A stretch of DNA of 35,344 nt. It comes from Baffinella frigidus (lineage: Eukaryota; Cryptophyceae; Cryptomonadales; Baffinellaceae). Positions 1 through 35,344 of the stretch are shown here, piece after piece. The notes under the pieces are model-generated. The model searched no databases. It saw nothing but the letters and a program-made list of their open reading frames with translations, and had not been told where the DNA came from. Both the position numbers and the translations under genes were made by a program. The stretch covers positions 644,633-679,976 of the forward strand of contig MU646306.1 of NCBI GenBank assembly GCA_026770585.1, in the 5' to 3' direction. Position 1 is the stretch's first letter. Each line of letters starts with the position of its first letter.

Positions 1-49
1 CGCTGCGTGGTTGCATACGCGAGGAGTGTGGAGTTGGAGAGGCACGGAC

Positions 50-142
50 CTTCTCCTCGGGGTTCATGTCCCCCCACTCGTCCTGGTCCTCCATCACCTC
101 CGCGGCTATCTCCACCACCTTCACGTGCTCCCCTCCCCGCAC
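50..142 (-). CDS. Calpain exon 35 (acidic tail, last exon in window)
   Basis: Residues 1068-1098: VRGGEHVKVVEIAAEVMEDQ, DEWGDMNPEEK. Acidic segment after domain III, comparable in place to exon 16 after module 1. Acceptor TTCCAG|GTGCGG, probable donor GAGAAG|GTCCGT at 49-44, so the gene continues to the left. Four acceptor-side copies at 281-318, 386-426, 516-560 and 703-740. Confidence 0.8.
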
Positions 143-3100
143 CTGGAAAGAAGAGCGCGTTTATTAGGGTTCAAAGTGTAGGGTGTAGGGTGTAGGGTGT
201 AGGGTGTAAGGTGTAGGGTGTAAGGTGTAGGGTGTAGGGTGTAGGGTGTAAAGTGTAGGGTTGAAGGTTATAATTTAGGAACCTCCACCACCTTCGCGTG
301 CTCCCCTCCCCGCACCTGCGCACGAGTTTAGGGGTTATGGTTCAGGGTTTCAAGTTTCGGATATATCCTGGGTGTCCCACTCCCCGCCACCTCCACCACC
401 TTCACGTGCTGCCCTCCCCGCACCTGCGCGAGAGTTCAGGGTTCAGGGTGTAGAATGGGGAACGTACCATCGGGTTTCTGGTTTCTGGTTTCGGATTTGA
501 GGTTAGGGTTTCCTCTGCGGCTATCTCAACCACCTTCACGTTCTCCCCTCCCCGCACCTGAAAAGAAGAGCGCGTTTATTAGGGTTTAGAGTGTAGGGTG
601 TAGGGTTTAGAGTTTAGGGTGTAGGGTGTAGGGTGTAGGGTGTAGGGTGTAGGGTGTAGGGTGTAGGGTGTAGGGTGTAGGGTTGAAGGTTATAATTTAG
701 GAACCTCCACCACCTTCACGTGCTCCCCTCCCCACACCTGGACCAGGGTTTAGGGATAAGGGGTCAGGGTGCAGGGTTTAGGGTTTAGGGTTTAGGGTTT
801 AGGGTTTGGGGTTTGGGGTTTAGGGTTTGGGGTTAGTGTTTAGGGTTTGGGGTTTGGGGTTTGAGGTTTGGGGTTTGGGGTTGAAGGTTTAGGTTTTGGG
901 TTTTGGGGTTTTGGGTTTTGGGGTTTGGGGTTTAGGGTTTTGGGATTTGGGATTTGGGGTTTAGGTTTTAGGGTTAAGGGTTTAGGGCTTGGGGTTTGGG
1001 GTTGAGTGTTTAGGGCTTGGGGTTTAGGGTTTAGTGTTTAGTGTTTAGTGTTTAGTGTTTAGTGTCCAGTGTTTATTGTTTAGTGTGGAGTGTTTAGAGT
1101 TCAGGGTTTAGAGTTCAGGGTTTAGGGGTGTACCAGGATGGGGCTCTTGTGCCAGATGTTGAGCATAAAGCCACCCTCCTTCTCAGGATCAAACGTCATC
1201 GGCACCACCACGTACGGCGAGTCCTGCCATGTCAGTCCGAAACAGTTCAGCATCGTTCCATCGCAATTTCGTTTCCTGTGAAATTATCGCGAGTTCGTCG
1301 TGGTTGCAGCGTCGTGAGTGCTGCCGTCTTGTGCCCCCGGGCAATAGAGTGTATGGCAGACCCACGGTTATTCCAGTCGTCCTCTTTCTCAGGGTCGAAC
1401 GTCATCGGGACCACCACGTACGGCGAGTCCTGCCAGATAGGGTTCAGGGGTCAATGTGATGGGGTTAGGCTGTGGTTGGTGTGACGAGTCCTGCCGTTCA
1501 TCGCGAAGCCGCGCGAGTTGAGCGATTTTTGCACACGCAATGATTTATTATGATATATGTGTTTGTGGAAACAAATATTATCTTAGCGAGTAACATGCAG
1601 ACACGCGGCCGGAGCCGAGGCGCGGAGAGGGAGGCGCGGCAGCAGGAGGGAGAGCGGAGACCTTGGGGTTCAGCTGTAGGGTCAAGGGTGCTGGAGTTCA
1701 GCTGTACGGTGAAGGGTGCTGTGGTTCAGCTGTAGGGTGAATGGGGTTCGGGTTGAGTTGTAGGGTGAAGGGCCCTTGGGGTTGAGCTGTAGGGTGAAGG
1801 GTGTTGGAGTTCAGCTGTAGGGTTGAGCTGTAGGGTGACCTTGGGGTTGAGCTGTAGGGTGAAGGGAGTCGCGACGTCGCGGTCGCGCCTGCGGACACGA
1901 GTCGGGGTTTGAGCACACTCCCTGGCCCTCGGGATGGACGTGATCTGGGACACGCATATCACAAAAAAAAATACAAAAAAAAATAATCAGACACATACAG
2001 TCCGGCACCCTCCGAAAGAACATTGTGAGTGGCGTGGCGTGAAGAACGCCCTCGCACGCGAAACTTTCCACGCGACGATAACCTGTGTATCCAATCGATC
2101 ACGTCTTTCTATAATTCCTGCACAAGTAAAAGTATTTGTGTTCGGAATCCGCGCAAAGTTGACAGATTGGCAGTTGACACGGATTGCAGAACGTTCACGC
2201 TTGCGAGAACACACTCGCACGCGAAAGATACGCGGGCGTTCCGCACGCCGTTCGATTTTGCTCCCACACAACACTCTGGTTGACAAGATTGGTGGTTCAC
2301 AAGGCTTGCAGAACGCTCAGGCGCGCTTGAGGGAACAGTTTCCCCATTCACCCTCGCAAACCGTCGTCGCCAAGGTCCCATCTCGATCAGATTTACGTAG
2401 TTGCAGCCAACTTAGATTTACGTAGATTTACGTAGTTGCAGCTCAGAGTTACGTAGCACGCGCTGGGTGCCCACGGTATGATCTGCTCGAAAGAAGAGGC
2501 TGTGCGCGCATTACCCCAAGTCATGTTTTAGGGGAAATGGTTCCCAAAAGTTTTGGAGCCGTTTTTCTTTTAGCAGAAAAACGGCTCCAAGAACGCACAA
2601 ACGGCTCAAAGAACGCACATGGAATACCCTACCCACGGGCCTGGAGCGGGTGCGCATTACCCCTCGCTCTCTCGGCACGCAACCCCAACGAGGACAGAGC
2701 TGACCGTTCCCAAACCCTAGTTGGTCGTTCCTAAACTCTCAACCCTAAATTCGCAGACCCGCAGAGGGGCACGTACTTGAAACCACTCATGGCGACGAGA
2801 TCGGACGATCGCATGCGTGCCCCCTCGTCATCACCCCTCACTCTCTAGGCACGCACCAGGGAAGGGGGAGTTTGTCTCGTTCCTACGCCAACTCGCGAGG
2901 GTTTATGAACGACCAACTCTCTCTCTAGGCGAGCACCGCCGAAGGGGGGAGCGATGGTCTCTCATACATCGTGAACCTCAAGTCTGTACACCCGGAGAGG
3001 GGCACTCGTACTTGAAGCCACTCATGGCGACGAGATCGGAGGATCGCATCCTCGCGCCCTTGGCTTCAAACGCCGCCGCCTGCCCACCATCCACACCTCC

Positions 3101-6100
3101 GTCAGCAAAAACACGAAAACACGGACACGCGCGTCAAAAATGCACGAGGAAGGCAACCACGTCAGCCGCCGCCTGCGCGATTTCCGTACTCTTAGGGGGG
3201 GTTGAAACACCAGAATGTGTACCAGGAATCCTTGAGATAGACGCTTTGAACGTCATCTATTAAGTGACGGACGAGAAGAGGTCGGGGGATCGCATCCTCG
3301 CGCCCTTGGCTCCAAACTCGCCTGCGCGAGTTTTGCACTGTTAGGGGGGGTTGAAACACCAGAGTGTGTACCAGAAAACCTTGAGATGGACGATTTGCGA
3401 ATGGAGATCTGTTAGGAGACGAGATGAGATCGGACGATCGCATGCGTGCGATCCCTTGGCTTCAAACGCCACCGCTTGCCCAGCATTCACACCTCCGTCA
3501 GCAAAAACACGGACACGCGCGTCAAAAATGCACGAGGAAAGCAACCACGTCAGCCGCCGCCTGCGCGAGTTTCGCACTGTTAGGGGGGTTGAAACACCAA
3601 CATTTGTACCAGAAATGTGCGCCTGCCGTTGGAGTAGGAATTGGGCGTCCAGTCCTTGGAGTCAGCACACACGCGCGAGTTTTGTATTTTCAGGCGGCAT
3701 AAAACACCAAAATTTGCACCAGAAATCCATGAGATGGACGCTTTGCGAAATGTAACCTGAAATTTATTAGATGAAAGCTTTGCGAAATATAATAGAGGTG
3801 ATGAGCTGATACCTTGGCAACGACGAATCCGATGACGTTGGAGTAAGCATCGGGCTTCCTGTCCTTGAAGTCAGCACACACGCACGAGTTTTGCACTTCC
3901 AGGCGGGCTAAAACACCAGAATTTGTACCTAAAATACAAGAATTTGTGCCTAAAATACCAGAATTTACAGAATTAGTGCACATTTGAATACATAATTGGT
4001 ACGCATTAAAACGCCATAATGTGTACGCATTGGGTGACGCGGTGGGACCTTGGCCACGACGAATCCGATGGCGTTGGAGTAGGCGTTGGGCTTCCAGTCC
4101 TTGGAGTCGGCGCGCACGCGCGAGTCGGGCTGCGAGAGGTAGATGAAGCACGACGTCTTCTGCTCCACGAAGAGAAGATACTGCCAACCGCGTTCGATGT
4201 GGATGATTGTTAGGTCAAAAAACTAACGAAAGGTGCGCTTTTTTGATGAAATATGCGTTTTTTTTAGACGCGGTGCGAAGGGGGCACGCGATCTTTTGGT
4301 GGGAACATTCGCATAATGCAGGCGTCAGTCCTTGGGAGTCGGGCTGCGAGAGGTAGAGCGCTTGTGGGAAAACTTGGCCGATTTCAACGAGATTTTTTTT
4401 CAAAATTTGTACCAGAATCGTTTAGATGGACCGGTTTCATGTCACGTCCTGGTACAAAATCTCTGAATTTCTGAAAACATTCCTCGTTGAAATCGGTCAA
4501 GTTTTCCCACACGCGCTCTAAATGAAGCACACAGGCGTCTCCTCCACGGACAGCAGATACTGCACACATGGAAAGACGAGGTTGATTAAGTTAACCTTCA
4601 CGACCGGGGGAGAGGTGGGACGACCGCGTTCAAAGTGGATGATTGTTAGGTCAAAAAAGCGCAATTCACCTACGTGGATTCGCCCGTGGGGTCATTTTTG
4701 CATAATGCAGGCGTTGGATCCCGCGAGTCGGGTTCTGTGAGGTAGATGAAGAACGAAACACAGATAGTGACGACAGGTTGCGGTTTGGGGTTTGGGGTTT
4801 GGGGTTTATGGTTTAGGGTTTAGGGTTTAGGGTTTAGGGTTCAGGATTGATGGTTCAGGATAGCCGTGCTTTTCCCACCGTGAATCCCTCTATCAGGCGC
4901 CATCCGTATACCCCTTGAGTGCCCATGCCGTCAAATTTGAGGGCCAAGAGGTCCTAGGCAGGTCCTAGGGCCCTACCGTAGGGCGTATGAGCCTACTGGC
5001 CACTTAAGGGATAGGAGGGGGGACGTCCTGGTTCGCGGCGAGGGGCACCTAGGGGTTCTCAAGCCATGCAGAGGGGTTCCTTGGAGGCGATCCGCTGCTT
5101 TCAGGCAAGTGGCGGTTCATAACCTGTGTGCCCAGGCTCGTACCCGAGGACCCACAGCGACTGCTGACTGAACCAGGCAGGTTCTGTGCCGGGACTGCCA
5201 CTAAACAGGGAAAGCTTAGCAGCAGCCCACCCCCCCCCCCCCACACACACAGGGGAAACACATTTGGAGAGGGTCCTTAATAAACGGGCAGACCTGGGGG
5301 TTCTGGAGTCAGGCGTTGGGGTTCTTGGAAGTAGGGGCGCCCATGGCGGTGCTGAAGGGATTTCATCTCGACAGATAACTGAATCAGTTCCCTAAGTAGC
5401 GTTCTCAATTAATTAGGAGGCATGATTGAAGTGACTATTGCCCAACTAATTTCTCCTTTTCAACCTCCTGTTGAACAATCATTCAGTCATTTATCTTTCG
5501 AGACGAGATGAGACCTGTGGGTTCTGGAGCCAGGCGTTGGGGTTCTTGGAAGTATGGGCGCCCATTGGCCTAGATACTAGATACTAGACACTAGAAACAC
5601 GATACTGGACAATAGAAACAAGATACTGGAGATACTCGACACTCGATACTAGACAGACCTGGGGGTTCTGGAGCCAGGCGTTGGGGTTCTTGGAAGTAGG
5701 GGCGCCCATGGCGGTGCTGAACCACACACAAGGCGATCGCAACCCCCTTTTTAAATGTTGGTTTTACGGTTTTGTAGGGCGTTGGTCACGTGCCGACACG
5801 GAAAAGCGTGTAGCCACGTGACCAACCCCATGAAAATTACTACGCACTGACAACTTCCAGACATTTGAAAAGGGTGATGGCGTAGCCTCGTGTGGGACCT
5901 GGGGGTTCTGGAGCCAGGCGTTGGGGTTCTTGGAAGTAGGGGCGCCCATGGCGGTGCTGAACCGCGGCACGGGAAGCGTCAAGTCCTCGCGCAGCCATTT
6001 CCCTTTCGAGCGGATGCACTGCCACGGCTCCTGCGCGGGGTGCGGTGTAGTTTCGTCAGCGTTCATCATTGCGGTTGCATATAGGCGCGTTGAAGTTTCT

Positions 6101-7599
6101 TGCGGCGGGATGTGCCGTGCGCCACATCATGTATGAAACACGCCGAAGCCAGACGGTCGGTCGTGACTGCCTTGCGTGTTCCTAAGTTGCCAACGAACGC
6201 ACTGCCACGGCGCCTGCGCGGGTGGTGCTTTGTAGTTTCGTTAGGGTACATGGCGGTGCTGAAGCGCGGCACGGGGAGCCTCAAGTCCTCGCGCAGCCAT
6301 TTCACTCAGACCCACACGATTTCAGCTAAGTCAACCAGCTCACCTAAGTCGACTTTCCCCTGATTTTGTTAAGATGGACCCTGGTCTGGGACCGGGCATT
6401 TGACTTAAGGCGCTAGCTTTCAGGGGGGGCTGACTTAGGCGAAATGTTGTGGCTCCGAGTGCATTTGTCTTTCGAGCGGATGCATCGCCACGGATCCTGC
6501 GCGGGGTTTGGGGTTTGAAACCCCAGACCCCAACCCCCAAACCACCAGAATGGCTCCTGCGAGTGAAGACAGGTTATGGTGGCTCCGAGGAACACCCCGT
6601 AGGGTGTAGGGTGTAGGGTGTAGGGTGTAGGGTGTAGGGTGTGGGGTGTAGGGTGTAGGGTGTAGGGTGTAGGGTGTAGGGTGTAGGGTGTAACTCCTCC
6701 CGGAAGGAGTGAGTTAGTGAGTTGGTGCTGTTGGCGATACGTTTTAGTAGCGTGTGTTGTATTTTCGTCGGGGTGAATGGCGGTGTCGTCGGATTGAGGG
6801 GTGGGGTGGGGGGTCGTTGTTCCTGCGTGCGCGGGCAGAGGCGATGCAGGTTCGATAGGGTGCATGGCTGTTCCGTCAGATCGAGGGGTCGTTCGGGATT
6901 CGGTGTGGCGGTAGGCGTATCTGTGTTCTTAACAAATGCGGTTTCGTTAGGGTTCAGGGTTTAGTGTTTAGGGTTTAGGGTTAAGGGCTTAGGGTTTAGG
7001 GTTTAGGGTTTAGGGTTTAGGGTTTAGGGTTCAGATACAGGGTTAAGGGTTGTAGTTGTAGTTTTTGGCAAGGTGTGTGGTGGGTCCGCGGTCAAGCCCG
7101 GAGGGCTGAACGGTGCGCCACATAACGTTTCTAATGTAGTTCATGGTGTATATGCCGAGCTCAATGTGTTGCGAGACACTGCGGGGGGCGAGGCGGGGGG
7201 GGGGGGAACTTGGACATCTAACGGTGAATAAGCTGACCGCAACGTGTTGCAGGGCGGGCGAGGCGGGCGAGGGGGGGCTTGAACATGCGGCAGATGTAGA
7301 GGGTGTTGAGGTCGTCGTAGCGGACTATTCTTAAGTTGACCTACTGAGGTTTTGGTACACATCCGTCAACTTTGGAGCGGAAAAGAGCCCGGCCTCACCA
7401 AATTGATGAGACGAAATAGACTGAGGCAGATCTAGACCTTGAACATGCGGCAGATGTAGAGGGTGTTGAGGTTGCTCTCTCTCTCTCGCGCTCTCTCTCT
7501 CTCTCTCTCTCTCTCCCCCTCGTGCTCTCTCGCTCTCTCTCTCTCGCTCTCGACCTTGAACATGCGGCAGATGTAGAGGGTGTTGAGGTTGCTCTCTCG

Positions 7600-7648
<49 letters not shown>

Positions 7649-10600
7649 TCTCTCTCTCTCGACCTTGAACATGCGGCAGATGTAGAGGGTGTTGAGGTTG
7701 TCGTAGAAGTCCTGCTCCCACATCCAGAAGAAGCTCTCGTCGCCCCGCTCCGCCGAGAGCTCGTCTGCAACCTGAGGTTTTGGGGATTGGGGTTTAGAAT
7801 TGAGGAACCCTATGTTAATTATTGAGGTGATGACTCTAAGTTTTAGGGTTTTCTGCGCCGTCATGACACACGTGCACCATTAGCTAGAGTAGAAGTCCCG
7901 CTCCCACATCCAGAAAAAGAAATTCTTCTGGATGTGGGAGGGACGGAATTCGCACTTGGTCTCACGGCGTTGGGCAACCCCGAACCTGCAGCCCAACCCT
8001 GAACCCTGAACCCTGAACCCTGGGTTCAGGTTTTGCGGACGAGGAGGTGCATTTTTGTGTTTTGCGGATGAGGAGTTGCGGTTTCGTGTGTTTTGCGGAC
8101 GGGGAGTTGCAAAAAGAAACGAAGCCGCACCTTGTCGTAGGTGGTCCACTCCTTAGAGCCCTGCGACCACGGCCCGATCCACCCGGGTAGATCGGACGAG
8201 GCGGTGCGATTTTGTGTGTTTTGCAGACGAGCAGTTGTGGTTTCGTGTATTTTGCGGACGGGGAGTTGCAAAAAAACACGAAGACGCACCTTGTCGTATG
8301 TGGTCCACTCCTTAGAGCCCTGCGACCACGGCCCGATCCACCCGGCCTTCCCCCATGGGTTCTTCAGCTTGATCAGCCTAGTTGAGGGTTGAAGGTTTAG
8401 GGTTTGGGGTTTAGGGTTTAGGCTTCAAGGTTTCGGGTTTCGGGTTCCGGGTTTCGGTTTTCGAGTTTCGGGTTTAGGTTAAGCTGAAGAACCCGAGGGG
8501 TAACGCTGAAGAACCCGTGGACTAAAGCTGAAAAAAAAGCGTGGGGTCATGCGGTGGAGAACCCATGGGGGAAGGTGTTACCGCAGGAGCGTCTTCCCCT
8601 CGAACATCCGCTCCCCAATCCGCGGGAGATGGATCTCCTTGAGGGCCACGATCGGGTAGCAGTGTCCCGGGAGGAGCCCGGTTTCCGCGGAGTTGTCGCG
8701 CCGCCCGGTGTCCGCCTTGATCGCGGATCCGATTAATGATCTGCGACGTTTCAGGGACACGACACGTGTTCAGCACTCCTTGATGGACGCGACGGGTGTG
8801 CTTAGCACGCCTTCTAGTTTCAATTTGCAATTTTAAGCTAGGATATCTACCAACGGAGCCAGGTAAAATGGACGCGACACATCTCCGCGGAGTTGTCGCG
8901 CCGCCCGGTGTCCGCTTTGATCGCGGATCCGATCAGCAATCTGCGGGGGGTTCAGGGACGCGACACGTGTGTTCAGCACGTGTTCATGGACGTGAGGGGC
9001 GTGCCCAGCACTTGTTCAGGGACGTGATGGGTTTGTATCCAGGTGTCAGCACTGATCGCGGACCCGATTTGCGATCTGCGTGGGTTTCACAGACGCGAAA
9101 CGTGTGTTCATCACTCTTTTAAGGACGGGACGGGTGTGTCCAGCACTCCTTCAAGGACGGGACGGGTGTGTCCAGCACGCCTTTCTACCAACGGAGCCAG
9201 GTACAATGGACGCGACAGAGTTATCGCGGCGCCCGGTGTCCGCCTTGATCGCGGAACCGATCAGCGATCTGCGGCGGTTGCACGGACATGACATGTCTCT
9301 ACTAACGATCATCGATCTGCGACGTGGGCAGTCTGGCAGGCAACCGGCACGAGGCGGAGCTAGGTTACTTGCTCGGCTGACTGCACCTGCTGGTGTTGTT
9401 TAACTGAGACCCGATCAGGGATCTGCAGTTCAGGGACGCGCTGGGTGTGTTCAGCACGTCTTCTCCAAACGGAGCCGGTTCAGCATGGACGCGACAATTG
9501 ATAAAGACGTAAAAAAAGGCGTCTTTTCGCGTTTTCGGTGTGCCCAGCACGTCAAACTGCACCAGGTCGCCCGTCACAGACACACTGAAAACGCACGAAA
9601 CGGCGCCGTTTGTTGTACAGACACACTGAAAACTCTGGGTGGTTGGCTGACCACGCCAGATTGCTCGTGGGGGTTGGGCTCGTATGGGCGCCGAACTATC
9701 CCAAAGTAAACAATTTCCTCTTATTCGCTCCGGAGAATTGACTTTTGGCGACCCCTTCCAAACATCTGGTGTGGGTCGCACCCGTTGGTGACGAGGAGCG
9801 TCATTTCCTTCCAGAGCATTCCGTTGCGCACGCGCGACTCCACGTCCGGATCCGAGAGCCTCAAAACCTGTTGATGAGCAGGGGGGGGCTCAGAACCTGA
9901 GGATGCACGTGGGTCGAGACACCACGTCCACGAGAAGCAGGCAATTGCTCTGGGTGAGAGGCACGGCTTGCGCGGGTGCGCGTGGGGCGAGGTTTAGAGA
10001 GAACTTCATTACTTCCGAAACGACCGCCAGGTAAAGCTAGGATATCTACCATAAACTCTAAACCCTACCCCCCCCCCCAGAATTTCCCATTTGCGTGCGT
10101 TACATCGACGAGACGCAATTACGCAAATGGAAAATTCTGGGGTAGGGGTAGGGTTTAGGGTTTATGGTGCATGGTTCATGGTGTAGGGGAGAGGGTTTGG
10201 GTTTCAGGTTGTAGTGTTCAGGGTTCACGTTTTAAGGTTCCGGTTTTAGAATATAGGGGAGTTGTGCCTGGGGCGCGCAGCCAGTGAGGTCCTTCAGGGC
10301 GTTTTGGGTGTAGGGATTATTGTTGAGGGGTTGGGGTTCAGATTTTACGGTTCAGGATTTATAACATAGGGGGGGGGGGTGCCTGGGGGGTCCTTGTGGG
10401 CGTTTAGGGATTGGGGTTCAGGATTCAGGGTTCAGGGATTAGGGGCGAGGGTTTACAGTTGAGGGGAGTGATTAGGGTTTAGTGGGGATCGTGCCTGGGG
10501 CGCGCCGCCCGTGAGGTCCTTGAGGGCGTTTGTGGTGTAGGGATTATTGTTGAGGGTTTGGGGTTCAGGTTTCACGGTTCAGGATCTATAATATAGGGGG

Positions 10601-10890
10601 GGGGTGGTGCCTGGGGGGCGCCGCCCGTGAGATCCTTGAGGGCGTAGGCGAGGTTGCCGTGCGCCAGACACTCGTAGCACCTGAAATCCAGGAGGCGTGG
10701 CGTAAGCCTTGATGAGCAAATGACCACTCGTGGAGCACTGTAGGAGCCCTAGCGCCAGACAGTATCACCACCTTTCGGGTTGTGCGTGGCTTGAACCATT
10801 TCCCTCAGAGGAAGGTGCGAATTCGAACCTTCCCCCGAAGGACATGGGCAGTGCCAGACACCGATGACCTACGCCTGGCTGGGTGCGTCG

Positions 10891-10942
<52 letters not shown>

Positions 10943-13900
10943 CTCTCTCTCTCGCGTGGCTTGAGCCAGGATTCGCCGATGGCGCCCCATCTCGAAGGGG
11001 GTACATGAGACGCGGTGCTAGGAGCCCCAGGATCTACACTAGTCCCAACGCCGTGCGCCAGGCACTTGTAGCACCTGTCATTTGCAGGGGGGAGGGGTCA
11101 GATGGGGGTTTCCGCGGGGAGGGAGGGAGGTATGCAGAGAGGGAGGGGGAGGCATGTTTAGGGTGTATGGTGTATGTTTTTTTGTTTAGAGGTTAGAGTT
11201 GGGAGTTATTTGTTTAGGGTTTAGATTTTAGAGTTAGGGGTTTCGGTTGGGGTGCACCCGTGGAGCTTAGCGTAGGCCTTTTCGAGGATCGGGACCCAGA
11301 GCTCGCTCACGTCCTGTGTTAGGGTTTATGATTTAGGGTTTAGGGTTTAGGGTTTAGGGTTTAGGGTTTAGGGTTTAGGGTTAAGGTTTTAGGTTTCAGG
11401 GTTTAGGGTTTAGGGTTGAGGGTTAGGGTTTAGGGTTAAGGTTTTAGGTTTTAGGGTTCAGGTTTTAGGGTTTAGGGTTGGGATTTACCGCGCACTTAGC
11501 CATGAGTGAGCGCGCGCGTTTCGTGCACGGGAGGTGATCATCCACCATAACCTGTTGACACCCAAATTCAAGGGTCCGTGTAGAAGCGGGCGGTGAGACC
11601 GTGCTCTTTTTCGCCACAAAGTTGACGCATCAGAACCACACACACAGCATGTCAACTTAAGAATAGTCAGCCAACAAGCGTGAGACAGAGTGTCTGCGCA
11701 CTTAGCCATGAGCGAGCGCGCGCGCTTCGTGCACGGGAGATGGTCGTCTACCATAACCTGTTCGAGCCCAAGTTCAGAGTGTATGGGTTTGGTGAGCCTT
11801 CCGACTCCGTGTGCAGGGTGCAACACTGCATGGTGCTGAAAGGGGTGTGACTAACAAAGTACCGACTTGGGTTAGGCAGCTCCAAACCCTAGGAGGTTCC
11901 CCGAACTACCAACTGCACACACCCTCAGTTCCAAACCCTGCAGAGAGAAGATATTTCTTACCCTCAACCCTCAACCCTCAACCCTAGACGTCAAGTGGCA
12001 GGAGGTTCTCCTAGCTCTGCCTCACGCGGGTTGACTGACTATGCTTAAGTTGACACCTGCCGACTGACTATGCTTAAGTTGCCACCTGCTTCCACTTGCC
12101 GTCCTTGTAGAATCTTGTGGTGTACACGCCGTACGTCTCACATGCGGCGGAGTAGTCGAGGAACAGCCCCCGCAGCATCTCTGGACGCGTCGCCAGCACC
12201 TGGGGGGACGTGATATGTGTGTCAGACACACTGCCGAGACGCGGCACACGTGTTGGGAACACCCACTGGTGTGTCAAACACGCACATGTGTGTGGTGGAC
12301 ACACATGATGATTCGTCTGACACACTCACTGGTGTGTCTAGCACGCTGTACGTCTCGCACGCGGCCGATTAGTCGAGGAACAGCCCCCGCAGCATCTCTG
12401 ACCGCGTCGCCAGCACCTGGGACGTGACCGGGTGTCAGACGCACTGACGGGATGTGATGCAAGTGTTGGGCACACCTACTGGTGTGTCTAGCACGCACAT
12501 GTGTGTGGTGGACACACATGATGTTTTGTCTGACACACTCACTGGTGTGTCTAGCACGCTGTACGTCTCGCACGCGGCCGAGTAGTCGAGGAACAGCACC
12601 CGCAGCACCTCCGGCCGCGTTGCCAACACCTGCCGGGACACGACACGAGTGTCAGACACACCCCCATGTGTCTGACACACCTACTGGTGTGGCATGCACA
12701 CTGGCGGGGCGCGACCGAGTATCAGACACACCCGTTGGTGTGTCTAACACGCCTGTTTGTGTGTCAGTCACACCCGTACTGATTAGAACTTTTTCTGGTA
12801 CTATGCATGCTCAGTTTAGTTACCGTCTTGGTTAAAAAACAACCTGATTGAGGTAACAGTAGGGAGTGTAGTACTGCAAGGGCGTCGATGAATCAGGAAT
12901 CCACTATTACTTAAGTTAACAGAGGTTCCACTTTTGCTCTGAGACGTTCCACTCTCGACTTTTGTCTCGGTGGGCCGCGCTCTTCCAGGGCGCGCCACCA
13001 AGACAAACGTCATTCTCGCTTCAACGCGAGTCTGGGATCAGACACCCATATGCGATTCCTTTTTCCTCGGCGCCCTTGCGGTACGACACCACTAGCCCTC
13101 CGAAGCAGGCCAAATCCAAGATGTGTCTTGAGCCATTTGCGCCTTGGCGAGGGTCGAATTCGATCCTCGCCAGGGCGAAAATGACGCAAGTCAAGACCTC
13201 GGTTTGGTCCATGACAGCATCGCGCCTTGAACCATGCATCCGTTGATAGGCGCGCCTCACTCGGGTTGACAGACTATTCCCAAGTTGACATGCTGAATGC
13301 GCGGTACAAATCCGTCAACTTTCGCGCGGGAACGACCCCGGAGGAAGCAGGTTGGTGGGAACAAATAGACTGAGACAGAGCTGGTGGTGTAGTACCGCAC
13401 GGGCGCCGAGGAACCAGGAATCGGAGAGCGCGCCGACTGTTGACTAATTCTCGCGTTCCCTGGTACAAAGCCTGCCGGGATTAGTCATCGCCCCGGTACG
13501 AGAGGGCCCGGTTTAGTCAACCGTCGGGGTTAGTACCGCAAGAGCGCCCAGAAACCAGGAATCGGAGAGAGCCTTGAACCACGTCATGGACCAAACCGAG
13601 GTCTTGACTTGAGTCATTTTCGCCCTGGCGAGGATCGAATTCGACCCTCGCCAAGGCGAAAATGGCTCAATCGCGGACGTGGCCTGCTTCGAAGGGCTAG
13701 TGGTGTCGTACCGCAAGAGCGCCGAGAAACCAGGAGTCGGAGAGAGCGCCTTGGACCACGCCGCCGTTGATGGGCGCGCCGGGGGTACTGTCCTTGAACA
13801 GTCGCGGTTTCACCTGCACGTGCGGACTCCACCGTTACTCCACACAGCGGACTTCGAGGGGATTTTGAATAACCCATGAGCGATAGGACCTGTGTCCCTA

Positions 13901-18441: not shown

Positions 18442-18528
<87 letters not shown>

Positions 18529-19661
18529 GATTAAGGGTTGAGGGTTTTGAGGTTCAGGGGCGGCTTCACGGGTGGGGGCGAGCGCCGCAGCTACTCCCCT
18601 GGGATACAGGGGCGGGACCTTTGGCGCATAGGGCGACAATCTCGGCCTGCGAGAGTTTGAGGCGGACGTTCTTCTCTGGAAAATCCTCTATTCTTTATTC
18701 TTAAGTTCTTTGTTCTTTATTCTTTTTCTTTTCTTTTTTAAGGATTTGTGGTTCAGCGTTAAGGTCATCGGGTTTTGGGTTTCGGGTTTCAGGTTTCGGG
18801 GTTGGGGTTTGAAGGGTTTTAGGGATTAGAGGTGGGACCTTTGGCGCAGAGCGCGACAATCTCGGCCTGCGAGAGCTTCAGCCGGACTTGCTTTTCGGGG
18901 AAGTCCTCGTCAGCGACTGCTGGCAAGTGGAGCAGCTCGTTCTCCCCTGTGCGGGTTTGGGGTTTATTGTTAGTTATTTACGATTCATGGTTTAGGGTTG
19001 ACGATTCAGGTTGCACCGTAAAGCTCGTTCTCACCTGTGTCATGCAGCAAGCTTACTTCAGCGGAGAACTTACCTGGACGCGACTCTGCACAAAAAAAAT
19101 ATAAGGCACAACAGTCTAGGGCTGTAAAAGTCCTGGAGTTGTTTTTAAAATTGTTTTAGAGCGGACAGTGTCCGGGTTTGAGGCGGACTTGCTTCTCTGG
19201 AAAATCTCATCCGGACGAGTATTCATAATGAATACGATTTTGGGGATCTCCGATCCGATTCTCGTGCATCTTGAGGCTCTGAATGAAGTCTAGATATACG
19301 ACTGTCTCATTTCTACCGCTAAGATACACCAAAATCGTATTCATTATGGATACTCGACGGGATTAAATCCTCGTCTGCGACTGCTGGCAAGTGCAGTAGC
19401 CCGTTCTCCCCTGTGCGGGTTTGGGGTTTATTATTAGTTATTTATTATTCATGGTTTAGGCTTGACGATTTGGGTTGCACCGTGAAAGGAGGGGCTTTTT
19501 GCAACGACATGGATCAGTGAAGCTGTGACTCACTCTGGCAACGTGTGCGCGAGAGAGGGTGCACAGCGTACCCTCGGAAAGCTCCTAAGGCGCTCGTTAG
19601 AACCCCCCTCGACCCCCCACCCTCAACTAGGGTTCGTGGTTGATGGTTGATGGTTGATGGT

Positions 19662-19706
<45 letters not shown>

Positions 19707-19884: not shown

Positions 19885-19923
<39 letters not shown>

Positions 19924-22900: not shown

Positions 22901-24513
22901 GTTCACCTGTGTGCGCACTCAGTCAGCTGCTGACATAGGGTCACCTGCTTTACTACCTGTATTCCCCACCACGCAGATATCCCATCTATATCTGGGGTGA
23001 CTACGGGGGCTTTGTTGGACTGTACCAGCTACGTCCATGTGTTCACCTGTGTCGGCCCGTTTCGGTCAGCAAAGCGTCAGCTGTGTATGCGATACGTCAG
23101 CTGGTGACTGCTATGGTTTAGGGTTAGGTGCTGACTGCTGGGGTTTAGGGTTCGGGTTTAGGGTTCAGGGTAGCTGGTGAGCGACGAGGGCTGTGTTGGA
23201 CGTTGATGTGCTTCCACAAGAGGAGCCCACGCGCCCTCAGGTCATTCCGTGGTACCATACCTCACGCAAAATAAAGCTGAACCCGAGGAGGCGTCTAGAA
23301 TAAGAAGACGGATAGGCGCGGGGGAAGAACATCATGCGATAGCAGGGCCCGCAAACTACGCTGACTCCGAGAAGGTATTCTGATGTGTTTACACGAACAC
23401 GGGTCGAGGGGAGGAGATCGGGGAGGACCGTCATGCGATAGCAGGGGTTGGTCCACCACTCGTTCTTCTTCCCCGGGCACCCCCCCGAGTTGATTCCCGC
23501 ATCCTGGTTTAGGGTTTAGGGTTTAGGGTTTAGGGTTTAGGGTTTAGGGTTTAGGGTTTAGGGTTTGGGGGTTTGGGGTTTGGGGTTTGGGGTTTGAGGT
23601 GTGGGGTTTGGGGTTTGGGGTTTTGGGGTTTAGGGTTCAGGGTTTAGGGTCTAGGGTCTAGGGTTTAGGGTTTAGGGTTTAGGGTGCAGGGTTTAGGGTT
23701 TGAGGTTTAGGGTCTAGGGTTTGGGATTGAGGGTTTAGTTGTTGGGGTTGAGGGCTTACACAGCGGCCCTTGACAAGCCTCTCGGACCAGAAGGAGGGGA
23801 ACAGGATGCACACACAGCGGGCTACTCTTGGGACAAATCGTCAAAGGTAAGACAGTTTTCGTCACCTTGTCCGTGGGAACCCCTCCTATGTCCCTACGGA
23901 TGGCCTACCGTAGGGTCCTAGGTGATATCGCGTATGGGATATTCAAAATCACTTGGAAGTCCGCTGTGTGGGTTTAGGGCGTAGGGTATACCCAGCGGCC
24001 TTTGACGAGCTCCTCGGACCAGGAGGAGGGGAAGAGGATGCACACATAGAGCGTGTTGAAGTACTTGCACCTGAGAACGCGAAGACCGACCATCAATCTT
24101 AGGTACTGCCTGTGAGTCTTGGGTACTAACTAAGTAACCAAGTAACCAATTGACTAAGTAACCGAGTAACTGAGTAACTGAGTAATTACCTAACTAACTG
24201 ACTAACTAACTGACTAACTAACTAACTAACTGACTGACTGACTCACTGACTAGTCAACTATCAGAACAGCCCTTAAACAGTTCCTCGGACCAAGAGGAGG
24301 GGAACAGGATACACACGTAGAGCGTGTTGGAGTATTTGCACCTGCGGTTTGGGGTTTGGGTTTGAGGGTTTAGGGTTTAGGGTTTAGGATTTAGGGCGTG
24401 AGGTTTTGGCACGCAATGCCCTTGAGGATGCACACGTAGAGTGTGTTGAAGTACTTGCACCTGATAACGTGGAGACCATCGAGTCTCAGGTACTTATTAA
24501 CTAACTAACTAAT

Positions 24514-24550
<37 letters not shown>

Positions 24551-27500
24551 GAATAAATAAGCTTGCACCTGATAACGCGAGTGATGCCGGAAGCCAACAT
24601 TAGCGGATGATGCTGGAAGCCAACGTTAGACAATCACTTGTTTCGACGCGATGCAGGTACAAAACAATACAATCATTGGTTGGGGAAGAGGTTGCACACG
24701 TAGAGTGTGTTGAAGTACTTGCGCCTGGCTTATGGTTTAGGTTTGAGGGTTTGGGGTTTCGGGATTAGGGTTTGGGGTTTAGAGTGTAGGATTTAGGGTT
24801 TACGGTGTCGGCACGCGAGGCCCTTCCTTTCTGAGGATGCACACGTACAGCGTGTTGACGTACTCGCACCTTCGCACGCGAAGACCATCGAGTCGTGTGT
24901 GATCTAGACCAGATCAACACAGACAAACCTCCTCACACGACACGGTAAGGTCAAATGTATTGACTATCTCCGTTCCTGTCAACAAAATTCTCTACACAGA
25001 TATTTTACTTCAACTCCCATGATCCAATTGAGTGCATTTTGTTGGCAGGCATCAATTAACACGTTCTCTCAGACAAAGTCGGGAGGGCACAGTCGGGGAC
25101 TTGTAGAGGGGTCAGTGGGGGGGGCGCGAACCAGTCTTCGAAGAGTATCCAAAACATGCCGTCGTCTGCCGGTTGGTAGTCTCTGCAAACGCCCCCACCC
25201 AGAATCAGCCTCCACAATCTTCCCGGGTGGGTAAACTTGCCAACGGGAAAAAAATCGCTGCCCGCGTCAGGCAAGAGTGGTGGGTACGAAGTCGCCCGGA
25301 ACCCCCCCGATCGCAAACACCTAAACCTAAACCCAAAACCCTAAAGTGGTTGATAATCCCTGCGCCCGCCCCCGCCCGGAATCAGCCCCACCGATCGCAA
25401 ACACCCCACAAAGCGGGCTTCCAAGAAGATTTCGCCCATAAATCTGGTCGAGATGTCGGTTGATAGTCCCTGCGCCCGCCCGCTCTCTGAATCACCCCCC
25501 CCCCCCGATCACAAACACCGGCGTGTGCCATACTCAAGCCTAGATCATAAACGGGGGATACAAATGGAGCCGGGTGTGTCAGACAAACCTGGTTTGTACC
25601 TAGCTCTGCCGTATTCGTGTTGACCGACTATTCTCGAGTTGACAAGCTTGGTCTGCGATCATCACCTTTGGAGTGAACAGAGCCCGGGCTCGCTACATCG
25701 ATGCGCCCACACACACCGAGAGAGAGCTGGGGTGTGGGGGGGGCACATCTGAAACATGTCGTACAAAAACGCTGCCCGGGTCAGCCAAGAGTGGTATGTA
25801 CGGGTATGGGGGTCGCGGAGTACGGTTCCGGGGGAACGGGTTAGGTGTTTGGGGTTTAGGGTTCGGGTTTAGGAGTGAGGGGGCCACCGCATCCAATGGG
25901 GTGCGACACACGTGGTGGGTACGGAGGGGGGGCGCTGAGATGCCCCCCTGAACCGAACTGCGACCTTGCCCGAATCATGTCACCCAAAACTCGATTCGGC
26001 AACTTTCGAAACTCGATTCGGCAACTTTCGAGGGGGGGGGCTGAGGGTGGTACCGCATCCACTGGGGGGCGTCAGGGTCGAGGTTTGACCACTCTGGCGC
26101 GTAGTCCGCCCACCGCCCGCACCACTCCTTCATCCCCCACGGGTTCCGCACCTGTGCCCATCCACGTTTCAACCAAAACCTGAAATTAGGCCGGAACATG
26201 CTAGGGGCCCTGCGGCCTGCCATAGTCAATACCGTGGGCGTGACTGCCCTAATTCCAGCTCGTCATCCTGTGAGTTTGCGTTGTTCTCGAATTGCACGAC
26301 TGCGGACTGACTAGCGTCCACACCACAACATCATCCCCCACGGGTTGCGCACCTGGTTGATGGTTTAGTGTTTAGTGTTTCGTGTTTAGTGTTTAGTGTT
26401 TGGTGTTTAGTGTTCAAAATTGGGAGTTGAGGGTGTAGAGTTTAGGGTATAGAGCTTGGGGTTCAGGATGCGGGGTTTAGGGTTCAGGGCTCGTGGTTTC
26501 GGCTGTAGGCTTTAGGTTTCAGGGTTCGCGATCCGCATTCGTGTTCATCCCGACTCGCACGACTGCTGCCGGACTCGAAGATTCCCAGGAGCAAATCATG
26601 CGCGGGGTAGTTCTCGTCTTGGTATTGTCGAAATGGGCTCCGCGCGGAAAAAATCGAGGTCAGGTCAGCAACATTTTTATTTTTTTGCCTTTTTGTGTCA
26701 TCTTATGGGTGGGAGGTGCTATTTTGAGATAAAAATCATGCCTAAGATAGCACAAAAGTCCATTTTTGGAAAAAAAACTTATTTCCTGACCTGACCTCGA
26801 TTCCGCGCGAAGCCCATTTCCACAATAATCAACCTGCCGGGATGGTCAACAGTCGCACGGGAGAAGCCCCGTTCACCGGGAGAAAGCGCAGACGTCGATT
26901 TGATCTCGAAAGATAACTGAATCAGTTCCCTAATTAGCGTTTTCATTTAATTGGGAGGCCTAAGTACATTTGCTATGCCCTATCTAATTTCTCCTATGCA
27001 ACCTCCTATTGAAAAGGAACTGATTCAGTCATCTTCCGAAATGAGATTCGTGAGAGAACACACGCGCGACGCTGTGTCGGCCGGCGTGCTCCCGGATGAT
27101 CTGTTTTGTAAAGCAACTGACGTACTGGTGTAGATAGTGTAAAGCAACGGATGCACTATTGCGCGAGGCTGAGTCGTCTGGGGGTGACGCACGGGTTCCC
27201 AGCCTGGACTGATGCAGAGCGAAAGAGAGAGAAGCTGCTATTGTAAAGCAGCTGGCGGTCAAGGACGTGACGCCGCTAGTGTAAAGCAACACAAACAGAG
27301 GCGTCCGCACCTGGAGGAATCAGAGGTCCTTATGCTTCTTGATGTCGACGATCCCGTACGCGTGCCCCCGGATGATCCGCATTGTAAAGCGATTGCTGCA
27401 TATATTGTAAAGCAACTGATGCGATATTGTAAAGCAACACGCTGTTATAGTAAAGCAATTGACGCTGCTAGTGGTGCGCTTTTGTAAAGCAACTCATGCA

Positions 27501-30500
27501 GCGGCGTCCGCACCTGCAGGAACCGGAGGTCCTTATGCTCCTTGACGTCGATGATCCCATACGCATGCCCCCGGATGATCCCACCATCGAACGCCACCTC
27601 CCGCTTCTGCCCCCGCGGGAGGGAGTAGCAGCACCCGCAGAGAGACCCCTGCCCCGCGGTGTGATTGGTGAGGGTGTTGATCAATGGGGTGTGTAGCACA
27701 GGAGAAGCCACCTCCCGCTTCTGCCCGCGCGGGAGCGGGTAGCAGCACCCGCAGAGAGACCCCTGCGGTGTGTTGAAGGAGGCGATGCGCGAGATGGAGG
27801 GGGGGGCGTGCTGGTGACCCCCGTGTCCGTGCGGTGCATTTTGGTGAGTTGCGGAATGTGGTGCAGGTGTGTTGACACAGGAGGAGCCGCCTTGCGCTTC
27901 TGCCCGCGCGGGAGAGAAGTAGCAGCACACCTATCGAGAAGCGCGGGAGAGAATTGGCAGAACCCGCCCAGCGACTCCTGCCCCGTATCCGAACGTAGGA
28001 AATCCCTATACTCCTGCCCCGTATCCGTACGTAGGAAATCCCTAGGAAATCTCTATACCCGGAACTTCCAGGGAATTCCTATTCCCGGATTCCCTACCCC
28101 CGAACCCCGAGACCTTAGACGGGTACTGTTTAGTGAGGGCGGTGCGGAATGGGGTGTGTGGGTTAACACGGGAGACGCCACATCCCGCGACTGTCCGTGG
28201 CAGGCACCGAACAGCAAGTAGCAAGCCGAAACCGCAGCACGCCCCCCTGAAAATCCATTTTCAAATGGGGGCTGGGCTTGATCTGACATGCGGTGATTTC
28301 GTGTTTAACATGCGCTGATTTTGTAAAGTGTGAAGTGGGTCTTTCAAGAGGGGGGCGTGCCTGCTTCATCCATAGTTTGAGCTTCTGCCAGAGGAAGCCG
28401 TTCGCGCACTCGTCCCGCACCTGTGTTCGTGTTCTGGGTCAGCTGCTTTCAGGGTCAGTTGCTTTACAACCTTTGCATCAGTTCTTTTACGATACGGATT
28501 TGAGCTTTTGATACAGGATACGGATTTGAGCGTTTGCTACAGGAATCCGTTCGCGCACTTATCCCACACCTGCGTTAGCGTGCACAGATTAGGGTTGAGG
28601 GTTAAGGATTGAGATTTGGGGTTTGGGGTTGGGGTTTGGGGTTGAGGGTTTAGGGTGGAGGGTTTAGGGTTGAGGGTTTAGGGTTGAGGGTTTAGGGTTT
28701 AGGGTTTTAGAGGAAGCCGTTCGCGCACTCGTCCCGCACCTGCATGCGTGTTCAGGGTTTGAGGTTCAGGGTTTGGGGTTTGGGGTTTGGGGTTTGGGGT
28801 TTGGGGTTCAGGGTTCAGGGTTCAGGGTTCAGGGTTCAGGGTTCAGGGTTGAGGGTTTGAGACTTAGGGTTTAGGGGTTCAGGGTTGAGGGTTAAGGGTT
28901 CAGGGTTCAGGGTATGCCACACGCGCCACATTTAGCGGCCCATTTTGGTCTTTTCAAGGAAAGAGGGTCGGGGGTGGGGGGTCCGAATACCTGGGGGTCG
29001 CTGAGGTTCACAACCTGAGGATCTCCTCCTGTCAGGTCTTTGAGCGCCATCGTCATGGTCCCTGCGTCCAACGGAAACGGTTACAAAACGTCATGGTCCA
29101 TGTGTTCAACGGAAACGGTTACAAAACGGCAACAGGGACGGTTACAGACGTCATGGTCCCGGTCTGGGGATACAGCCCCGTGTAGGATGACCGTAGTGAC
29201 TTGACACAGTCACGTCCACTATCCCTGAGGTGGCCAGTAGGCTCATACACCCTACTGTTAGAGCCGGCATTGTCCCAACGAGCACGGTCGTAGGGTTTCG
29301 GGTGTGGGGTATTTGGAGGGGAGGTTGTGGGAATGTGGGCATGGTTTGTTTAGGGACCTGTCTCGAGGTTGCGGAAGCAGCGGCGGTCTCAGTCTATTTG
29401 GGCTCACCAATTTCGCTCACCCGGGCTCTTTTCAACTCCAAAGTTGACAGATGTGTACCACACACCCAACATGTCAACTTACCAATACTCCGTAAACCCC
29501 AGTGAGGCAGGGCTAGGACCAGCATCGAGGTTCCGGTAGCATCGTCCGTTCATCAGAACCCCCCTCCCCCCTAGGGACCGCCATAGGGCCCTAGGTATAG
29601 GCCTACTGTAGGGTCCTAGGGGGTGGCGGTTTCTTACGAGCGAGGTACCCCTGTAATGGTATCCTGTCCAGTGCAAATGCTGCTCGGGTGTGGCAACCGT
29701 GGTGCAATGTAAATCGACCTTGGCTTTTCAATAGGACCCCCCTATGTCCCTACCGGTTTGATCCGTAGGGCCTATGGATTACGTTGAGATGGACTGTTCC
29801 CTTCTCGCTCGGCAGCGGTACCTGTCTCGAGGTTGCGGTAGCATCGTCCGTTCATCTTCGCGTACGCCTTCTCGACGAGCATCACCCAGATCTCGTTGGG
29901 CTGCGTCGACCGCGCGTACAGCGGCAGCCCTGTCCCCACCTGGTCCCAGTAAAGCGTAAAGCCGCTTTCAGTGTGTGCCAGTAAAGTAAAGTCACTTTCG
30001 GTAAGCGCCAGTAAAGTCACTTTCAGTAAGCGCCAGTAAAGTCACTTTCAGTAAGTGCCAGTAAGGCCACGTTCCCTCGCCGGGTGCCGTATCGTTTCTG
30101 TACCAAGCTCGTGCAAGCGGCAGCTCTGTCCCCACCTGTAAAGCCACTTTAAAGTCACTTGCTCGCCAGTAAAGTCACTTTTTATTGCCAGTAAAGTCAC
30201 TTTATCGCTCATCGTACAGCGGCAGCCCTGTCCCCACCTGTAAAGCCACTTTTAGTAAGCGCCAGTGAGGCCACTTGCAGTAAGCGCCAGTAAAGTCACT
30301 TGATCGCCAGTGAAGTCCCTGCTTATCGCCAGTAGAGTCACGTGCGCCAGTAAAGTCACTTTATCACTCGGCGTTCAGCGGCAGCCCTGTCCCCACCTGG
30401 GGCCAGTAAAGCCAGTCAGGTGTATCTCTCGCCGGCTGCCGTATCGTGTGTGCGTATACGCACGAAAAACTCGAAGCGCCCGTCCTTCCCACGGTGCGTA

Positions 30501-34465: not shown

Positions 34466-34529
34466 GCGTCTGGGGGCGCGGCTGCAGCGTCTGCAGGAAT
34501 CCGGAAAAAGAAGAGCGCTCGCCGTCCGG
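34466..34529 (+). CDS. Likely exon 2 of the UIM-like gene
   Basis: Encodes ASGGAAAASAGIRKKKSARR, P in phase with exon 1: small-residue linker then a basic patch. Acceptor GGACAG|GCGTC, donor CCGG|GTAACC. A donor-side copy at 34841-34877 is followed by a MITE at 34884, the same arrangement seen around the calpain exons. That supports this being a real exon edge. The gene continues right of the window. Confidence 0.5.
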
Positions 34530-34689
34530 GTAACCTCCTCTCTCCCACACCCCGCCCTCCCGCGCAGCGCACAGCGGGCTACAAAGAGATTTTCGGGTGG
34601 GAAATGCCCGAGTTTCCGTTGATTTTTTGGTTGCCTGCCGTAGGGTCCTAGGTCTTATCGAGGAGGGGTTGTGCAAGATCCCTTCGAAG

Positions 34690-34832
34690 CCACGCCACAC
34701 AGCAGGCTTCGAAGGGACTTTCGGGCTCTGAGAGCCCGAGTTTCCGTTACCTTATCCGTAGGAACCCCCTACCGTAGGGTCTCTATGTATTATCGCGCAA
34801 GGGTTGTTCAAGATCGCTTCAAAGCCAGACAG
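34690..34832. mobile_element. MITE-B copy in a cluster
   Basis: CACACAGCAGGCTTCGAAGGGACTTTCGGGCTCTGAGAGCCCGAG..TTTCCGTTACCTTATCCGTAGGAACCCC..CTTCAAAGCCAGACAGCG. A relative at 34566-34690 joins it end to end. Confidence 0.75.
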
Positions 34833-34883
34833 CGCCAGGAGGCATCCGGAAAAAGAAGAGCGACCACCGCCCCGGTAATACAT

Positions 34884-35006
34884 CCTAGCTCTGCCTGAGT
34901 TTTATTCTGGCTCGTCCTCGAAAGTATTTAAGAGCAGAAATTCAGTACAAAAGGGCGAATGGGAAGCCTTTATGACAAGCCAGAAAAAAACTCGGGCAGA
35001 GCTAGG
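34884..35006. mobile_element. Inverted-repeat element with CCTAGCTCTG ends
   Basis: CCTAGCTCTGCCTGAGTTTT..AACTCGGGCAGAGCTAGG, arms about 30 bp. It follows an exon 2 donor copy of the plus-strand gene and precedes a repeat of the sequence after that donor. Confidence 0.82.
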
Positions 35007-35066
35007 TAACCTCTTCTCTCCCACACCCCACCCTCCTTCTCGTATCCCCTGCTCCAGTCTGCTCGC

Positions 35067-35231
35067 ACCACACAGCGGGTTCCGATGGGATTTTCGGCCC
35101 ATTTCGGGCCGACTTTCCGTTACCTTACCTGTAGGACCCCCCCCCCATGTTCCTACGGATTGCCTACTGTAGGGTCCTATGTCTCATGGCTTAGGTATTT
35201 TTCGAAATCCCTTCGAAGTCCGCTGTATGGG
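35067..35231. mobile_element. MITE-B copy
   Basis: ACACAGCGGGTTCCGATGGGATTTTCGG..GACTTTCCGTTACCTTACCTGTAGGA..CTACTGTAGGGTCCTATG..CCCTTCGAAGTCCGCTGTATGG. Both ends present. Confidence 0.8.
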
Positions 35232-35313
35232 GTCACACCTTCGTAAACGCGCAAAGTTTTCGAGCTTTCATCATTGACCAAACCCGCCCCCAATCAACCC
35301 TCCCCATCGCGCC

Positions 35314-35344
<31 letters not shown>

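Follow-up and report, generated by a model that had tools for sequence, protein, structure and literature searches.

Partial copies of exon edges in the introns of a calpain gene of the cryptophyte Baffinella frigidus

How introns originate and grow has long been an open question, for which readable traces are scarce. Tandem duplication of an AGGT-containing segment is one route of intron gain, and staggered-break tandem duplications occur in plants; both duplicate AG^GT (the caret marks the splice junction) without filler. Introners, as described in the consulted parts of PMC9860276, are elements with terminal inverted repeats (TIRs) that lie in introns and create new ones, with splice sites recruited around the insertion and target-site duplications (TSDs) of 3–9 bp as direct repeats at the insert. 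Direct repeats of 4–30 bp near the splice sites at the two ends of one intron have been read as break repair around an insert (PMC11782384, in the sections used here), and repair-mediated duplications in vertebrates are local, with filler from within a few kb; exonic donors are rare among them (4 partial, 2 full and 2 intron/exon/intron of 824; PMC2671141, in the parts consulted). Here, we describe a 35,344-nt stretch of Baffinella frigidus DNA (the window; assembly GCA_026770585.1, contig MU646306.1, positions 644,633 to 679,976 of the forward strand), most of which is occupied by one gene:

50–32626, minus strand: calpain gene with 35 exons, two Peptidase_C2 domains and introns that contain ladders of exon-edge copies.

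Self-comparison of the window revealed many local direct repeats, the non-array ones being mostly spaced 50–600 bp apart. Each exon was compared with its surroundings within 1.5 kb under strict scoring; the shortest detectable copy overlaps the exon by 15 nt, and an edge is reached when the match comes within 3 nt of the exon end. This search yielded 67 local direct copies from 26 of the 35 calpain exons, 38 upstream and 29 downstream, and edge copies are present for 25 of the 35. With an alternative threshold (E < 1e-4), a local copy was found for 25/35 exons, with 69 copies direct and 4 inverted, close to the roughly 27 of 35 copied exons that a sequence-only reading of the window had counted. 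Fifty-seven of the 67 copies reach an exon edge: the 5′ end is reached by 32 of the 38 upstream copies (one, from E22, spans nearly the whole exon) and the 3′ end by 25 of the 29 downstream ones. The other 10 are internal (6 upstream, 4 downstream), and none of the 67 shows only the wrong edge, as expected from the directional rule proposed in that reading, by which downstream copies contain the 3′ end of the exon and upstream copies its 5′ end. Taken alone, the rule is weak evidence, because a duplication that touches one junction necessarily leaves its partial copy on the intron side. Exons E1, E2, E5, E9, E12a, E12b, E15, E23 and E25 have no direct copy within 1.5 kb under strict scoring; looser scoring gave an internal 28-bp match of E1 located 2 kb away and a 49-bp match of E9 that is mostly intron. 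The E1 piece (32525–32552, 28 bp) recurs 2 kb downstream at 30470–30497 with 100% identity and, by eye, adjoins two cgtatacgcac motifs there.

The copies mostly carry splice-site dinucleotides, AG in 30 of 32 upstream and GT or GC in 22 of 27 downstream copies. As had been claimed, donor-like copies stand at the start of the introns and acceptor-like ones at their end, and the working splice site sits on the full exon; yet the flank further out is mostly unrelated, which refines the earlier picture. Because an identity of at least 85% to the exon persists in 49 of the 57 edge copies, borders and filler are directly readable.

With short-period arrays masked, direct pairs were counted within 1.5 kb. 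Pairs with an exon member number 62 over 3.28 kb of exon, 36 pairs join exon copies, 8 join an exon copy with other intron, and 26 pairs with neither an exon nor an exon copy fall in intron totalling 25.0 kb, of which about 21 kb is unmasked. Per kb, local direct pairs are about 15–18 times as frequent in exons as in intron outside exon copies; slower decay of pairs holding a conserved exon could perhaps account for a factor of about 2. Inverted pairs total 12, of which 7 are intron-only. This count replaced a cruder control whose pseudo-exons overlapped exon copies: a local copy was also found for 417 of 700 random intronic pseudo-exons, with 1.07 direct copies each vs. 1.97 per exon. The self-comparison suggested as a check by the sequence-only reading has therefore come out with matches above chance that are biased in edge and direction, and the exon-edge copy pattern is confirmed as real. 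It is also unusual. An assembly artefact is thought an unlikely source of the copies, the contig being 2 Mb long and the copies differing by substitutions.

The exons with copies are listed below by the region that holds each exon and its copies.

31154–31434, minus strand: E3 (31360–31434); downstream copy 31154–31188 (3′ end, AAT^GT).
29356–30412, minus strand: E4 (29822–29939); upstream 30371–30412, 30213–30240, 30116–30138; downstream 29356–29379 and 29525–29554 (the strict match of the latter stops 5 nt inside the exon, so it is counted as internal).
28361–28758, minus strand: E6 (28361–28420, GC donor); upstream 28709–28758, 28525–28576.
27280–27928, minus strand: E7 (27514–27648); upstream 27707–27766, internal 27895–27928; downstream 27280–27378 (31 nt flank).
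26054–26355, minus strand: E8 (26054–26151); upstream 26321–26355.
23757–24886, minus strand: E10 (23992–24070); upstream 24282–24344, 24424–24477, 24682–24727, 24833–24886; downstream 23757–23814.
23321–23503, minus strand: E11 (23429–23503); downstream 23321–23347 (no GT).
22307–23052, minus strand: E12 (22307–22451); four upstream, 22527–22615, 22696–22757, 22849–22912, 23026–23052.
21100–21254, minus strand: E13 (21198–21254); downstream 21100–21124 (strict match stops 5 nt inside the exon; counted as internal).
20354–20924, minus strand: E14 (20862–20924); downstream 20583–20750 (120 nt flank), 20524–20591, 20354–20409.
18614–19483, minus strand: E16 (18839–18946); upstream 19368–19483 (73 nt flank); downstream 18614–18688.
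16280–17039, minus strand: E18 (16906–17039); downstream 16691–16730, 16280–16330.
15407–15839, minus strand: E19 (15762–15839); downstream 15407–15433, its inner edge met by the element 15426–15544.
13222–14014, minus strand: E20 (13712–13813); upstream 13963–14014; downstream 13533–13583, 13380–13434, internal 13222–13256.
12086–12661, minus strand: E21 (12086–12199); upstream 12555–12661, 12342–12532 (213-bp tandem units, extended flank).
11489–11762, minus strand: E22 (11489–11551); upstream near-complete copy 11696–11762 without donor.
10221–11077, minus strand: E24 (10611–10680, GC donor); upstream 11050–11077; downstream 10484–10529, 10221–10302.
8582–9293, minus strand: E26 (8582–8740); three upstream, 8884–9011, 9042–9152, 9218–9293 (24–74 nt flank).
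8036–8377, minus strand: E27 (8290–8377); downstream 8036–8186 (97 nt flank).
7278–7919, minus strand: E28 (7664–7771); downstream 7431–7591, 7278–7320; internal upstream 7889–7919.
5291–6507, minus strand: E29 (5899–6030); downstream 5656–5723, 5512–5565, 5291–5356; upstream 6462–6507, 6199–6251 (11 and 36 nt flank); internal 6249–6303.
3627–4756, minus strand: E30 (4049–4180); downstream 3811–3889; internal 3627–3680, 4336–4357, 4722–4756.
2757–3587, minus strand: E31 (3012–3079, borders less sure); upstream 3426–3587 (long flank), internal 3278–3317; downstream 2757–2814.
1667–1888, minus strand: E31b (1840–1888); downstream tandem copies 1667–1801 (long flank).
1134–1435, minus strand: E32 (1134–1223); upstream 1381–1435.
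50–742, minus strand: E33 (50–142); upstream 283–318, 391–426, 512–676 (119 nt flank), 705–742.

For the outer edges, the junction query reached 120 nt into the intron, which makes 120 nt the limit for any flank. Homology ends 0–7 nt past the splice junction in 32 of the 57 edge copies (18/32 upstream, 14/25 downstream; binomial P = 6.6e-19 against a uniform distribution over 0–86, a range chosen by us), while the inner edges vary, lying 15–86 nt inside the exon. The remaining 25 edge copies extend 9–120 nt into the intron. Duplication across exon–intron junctions, as inferred in the sequence-only reading, thus fits these 25 and is not supported for the 32 that stop at 0–7 nt, whereas repeated local duplication of exon edges within introns is supported. 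Among the copies at least 95% identical to the exon, 11 of 14 are sharp (0–5 nt), the other three having flanks of 16, 19 and 120 nt. Decay is therefore not the cause of the sharp edges; as the sole cause, decay of across-junction duplications was rejected for the majority of recent copies. Beyond the junction, the exact match has its mode at 3 nt upstream (14/32) vs. 3 nt between different acceptors (330/561 pairs), and at 2 nt downstream (8/27) vs. 2 nt between different donors (348/595); the measure is broken by single substitutions or shifts, so that some extended copies look short in it. Of the 561 different-acceptor pairs, one, that of E11 and E13, has 60 nt in common; a CCCTAAA array precedes both exons.

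The three E29 downstream copies are 100, 96 and 98% identical in their exon part and, past the junction, read gtctgtct, gtctcatc and gtctgccc, vs. gtcccaca at the real exon. The E28 copy at 7278–7320, 98% identical, stops exactly at the exon end without GT. With the 100 nt at either end of the introns as query, no intron-only match reached a junction; every junction-reaching match continues an exon copy and, apart from three matches considered below, the intron-only ones lie farther from junctions. Sharp donor edges occur in five contexts (AAG^, AAT^, CAG^, GCG^ and TGG^GT), which makes a long fixed motif unlikely; a sequence-specific nuclease that recognises a long motif (for example CAGGT) is accordingly thought an unlikely cause.

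The fillers between rungs are 38–421 bp long (48 of the 59 within 60–220 bp) and consist of MITE (miniature inverted-repeat transposable element)-like elements, CCCTAAA-like arrays, microsatellites and other DNA. Downstream fillers start with GT or GC in 25 of 27 cases and upstream fillers end with AG in 28 of 32; for a filler adjoining the real exon this holds by definition, and the six exceptions (E4, E28; E21, two of E26, E29) look like shifted alignments. Given such starts and ends, most steps are GT..AG units by themselves. The terminal-inverted-repeat test (30 shuffles each) was passed by 5 of the 59 fillers (two at E20, one at E21, two at E29). Three fillers lie close to both neighbouring edges:

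5726–5894, minus strand: dispersed palindromic MITE-like filler between E29 and its first copy, at most 5 nt from the junction and from the inner edge of the copy.
5359–5509, minus strand: TIR-bearing filler separating two E29 copies, lying about 5 nt from the edge on one side and 2 nt on the other; relative at 26897–27047.
7315–7433, minus strand: filler separating two E28 copies, no more than about 5 nt away from either edge; relatives at 13272–13382 and 15426–15544.

The last-named relative is the E19 element, which overlaps the inner edge of the E19 copy by 8 nt. Because elements sit flush with both edges, gene conversion by cDNA is thought unlikely as the source of sharp edges. For the element 5726–5894, 65 matches on both strands of the genome (382 Mb in 1364 contigs) came from 40 scored of 233 candidates; many of them pair up as both strands of a single place, and the window itself accounts for one. 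Long flanking direct repeats are absent at all six sampled other copies, three of which have a 2-bp flanking repeat by eye; a long TSD as a property of this element was not seen in these six. CCCTAAA-like heptamers number 265 on the calpain sense strand vs. 16 on the other in the whole window. This orientation holds neither GT nor AG, and selection for splice-silent filler would favour it. Elsewhere in the introns, a MITE-like element at 31515–31690, with CTAGCTCTG ends and apparently a 6-bp direct repeat (GTATCC, plus strand), adjoins by eye an apparent short upstream copy of the E3 acceptor, and a large inverted repeat, also seen by eye, lies at 17596–17806 in the intron between E16 and E18.

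On balance, we think it somewhat probable that the introns grew by repeated insertion at exon–intron junctions with a TSD-like, exon-limited duplication, together with ordinary tandem duplication. The observed basis of this reading is the direct edge copies, the 32/57 outer edges within 7 nt, the variable inner edges and the mixed filler; geometrically, they match a target-site duplication with one end at the splice junction and the other anywhere in the exon. The inserted DNA would be unrelated sequence (MITE-like elements, CCCTAAA-like arrays, microsatellites, other DNA), and each insertion would be flanked by the duplicated adjacent 15–86 nt of exon. The filler would supply the full exon with a new splice flank, and the old exon edge would stay in the intron as a rung, so that every rung would be a former working junction. 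If the DNA broke in a staggered way, nicked once at the junction and once within the exon, and was then filled in and joined around captured DNA, both the duplication and the mixed filler would be explained. The 25 longer-flank copies resemble products of ordinary tandem duplication, in part of rungs already present, a process that would add to the ladders.

The junction end of the duplication is probably set neither by a long motif nor by the one element sampled, and selection should not fix it, since copies with more flank should be no less viable. In the most speculative step, the junction nick would be placed by an R-loop of the spliced mRNA with its own exon: a hybrid of mRNA and gene exactly one exon long would explain exon-limited, two-sided edges, and the R-loop is the only DNA structure that we can name as ending at both splice sites. 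Such breaks would be expected at exon ends irrespective of sequence; sharp edges occur in five donor contexts, but at acceptors only in CAG^G. We hold it as a tentative possibility, and a doubtful one, that splicing feeds back on DNA, with mRNA–gene pairing marking the borders at which breaks start and repair inserts DNA and copies the exon edge. If this were true, introns would grow from both exon ends in steps, mostly GT..AG units. If a splicing-defined border holds genome-wide, exon borders would be visible to DNA breakage or repair, beyond RNA processing, and the ladders would offer a natural test of spliceosome choice among near-identical sites.

Several observations weigh against insertion at junctions. 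The 25 long-flank copies need only ordinary duplication. All sharp acceptor edges (CAG^GTG, GTT, GGG and GAC) are CAG^G, and a short motif may therefore act at acceptors. GTC is common to the real E29 exon and its three downstream copies, whose boundary may therefore be +3 rather than 0, and three intron-only matches stop 6–7 nt short of the acceptor (E9, 21 nt; E18, 15 nt; E30, 36 nt). Identity shows no fall with rung rank (rho −0.03, 38 copies), for which reason the nearest rung was not seen to be the newest and that expectation was rejected. The event rate would also have to be high, because a filler that starts with GT or ends with AG by chance is improbable. Finally, in a sample of six kinesin loci (the best of 45 matches, mostly long exons, without exon models), local pairs are absent from L045 and L047, L043 lacks any at a recognised edge, and candidate copies occur in at most three loci (L044, L046 and L048).

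The plainest alternative, that of the sequence-only reading, is tandem duplication or synthesis-dependent strand annealing (SDSA) across the junction, after which the intron part decays and the exon part stays recognisable through its conserved source. The 25/57 copies that extend into the intron and the near-tandem units at E14, E21, E27 and E31b fit it; as a general account it is nevertheless rather unlikely, since 11 of the 14 copies with at least 95% exon-part identity lack intron homology past 5 nt, and no intron-only duplicate was found at a junction, three coming within 6–7 nt. We consider it improbable that introner-like transposons inserted at junctions with a long target-site duplication of their own. 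Introners with TSDs and splice-site recruitment are described, and some fillers here are TIR elements between junction and copy, but the five fillers that passed the terminal-repeat test represent at least two unrelated types, arrays share the same geometry, and the six other copies of one MITE-like element show no long flanking repeats. The TSDs of introners (3–9 bp in the consulted parts of PMC9860276) also fall short of the 15–86 nt seen here.

Repair-mediated capture of proximal DNA by SDSA, with exon pieces pasted into nearby intron breaks, predicts mostly internal pieces in both orientations, whereas 57 of the 67 copies lie at the facing edge and direct copies outnumber inverted ones by 69 to 4. 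Although capture with filler and microhomology is known in vertebrates, partial exon/intron donors made up 4/824 there and one exon example was inverted (PMC2671141, in the parts consulted), and we judge it quite unlikely here. Selective retention of the copies as splicing decoys, enhancers or recursive-splicing (ratchet) points is the least credible of these accounts and very improbable. Many rungs do read AG^GT or AG^G, with AG kept in 30/32 upstream and GT/GC in 22/27 downstream copies, and the sequence preceding sharp upstream rungs has a pyrimidine content (0.54, n = 18) equal to that before real acceptors (0.53); the intron background, however, likewise has 0.52. Donor-like rungs score 3.02 vs. 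4.88 for real donors (P = 0.02, n = 14), a gap inflated by a score trained on real donors, and at least two copies, of E12 and E29, contain in-frame stops. Selection would moreover explain retention and not the filler geometry. Insertion at junctions, combined with ordinary tandem duplication, stays our preferred reading.

The exons of the calpain gene were found from translated anchors, followed by splice-site setting and completion aided by relatives. Thirty-four exons join in frame into 1077 aa without a stop; E12a (21545–21589) is a probable further, 35th exon with uncertain borders, and the borders of E31 are uncertain as well. Once E12a is counted, the 35 exons of the sequence-only reading are matched. 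An additional exon at 17978–18029 was dropped from the model, E16 and E18 being in frame when joined directly. Pfam analysis of an earlier 1038-aa version (without E31 and E31b) found Peptidase_C2 in two stretches and Calpain_III. The closest relatives are two source-jgi proteins (52 and 46% identity), and the best named ones are from Hanusia phi (54%), Palpitomonas bilix and Guillardia theta, all cryptophytes or their kin, so that the protein by itself points most likely to a cryptophyte host. Two of the 35 exons, E6 (28361) and E24 (10611), have GC donors, and both E24 downstream copies likewise carry GC. At 13709–13813, the second calpain domain reads SDSWFLGAL vs. GDCWFLSAL in the first, with Ser at the position of the Cys that we take to be catalytic; because of this replacement, the second domain may be inactive.

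Without full gene models, six loci with calpain or TCP1 matches on five other contigs were judged by eye. Downstream copies with sharp edges were seen in C64 (637–684/951–998) and C1202 (462–485/585–608), and sharp upstream copies in C1202 (1011–1046/1141–1176) and C94 (1885–1918/2101–2134). A downstream copy in C94 (2245–2276/2439–2470) extends to +6 nt and has TT instead of GT, another pair in C94 (1961–1989/2116–2144) is an internal copy, and C6 and C1202 hold extended copies. In C39, several CAG^GTGCGC copies occur whose parent exon could not be placed. Exon-edge copying is thus not private to the calpain gene; of the wider occurrence asked about in the sequence-only reading, the sharp copies in some calpain/TCP1 loci speak for it, while most of the kinesin loci sampled lack clear copies. 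Inside the window, a second, divergent gene had been proposed, with both exons copied:

34485–34878, plus strand: putative gene model; the pair 34485–34533/34830–34878 is consistent with an exon and a downstream copy of its 3′ part.

That one pair agrees with the proposal, but the gene model was not confirmed, and Pfam found no match in the 215 aa tested. The window ends in a run of 30 C (35315–35344).

Among the papers listed by searches of an open-access library, judged by titles and abstract openings and with most subscription papers outside it, no description of exon-limited, junction-terminated ladders was found, in line with the earlier remark that no standard description is known. The likenesses to described systems are partial (for the cited reports, in the parts consulted). 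With introners (PMC9860276), the locus shares TIR elements in introns, splice sites recruited around an insertion and direct repeats at the insert; unlike them, it has duplications of 15–86 nt of exon edge at existing junctions rather than short TSDs in new introns, and fillers of several types within the one calpain gene rather than one element family forming many introns. The border repeats of PMC11782384 are similarly suggestive of break repair around an insert, whereas ladders of longer copies near one exon edge are seen here. Local duplication and nearby filler recall the repair-mediated duplications of PMC2671141, whose consulted parts do not describe edge anchoring; capture in either orientation with donor borders untied to exons contrasts with 69 direct vs. 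4 inverted copies and 57/67 at an edge. As in the AGGT and plant duplications, one copy serves as the splice site, but in this gene the majority of copies end at a junction that already exists, and filler is enclosed.

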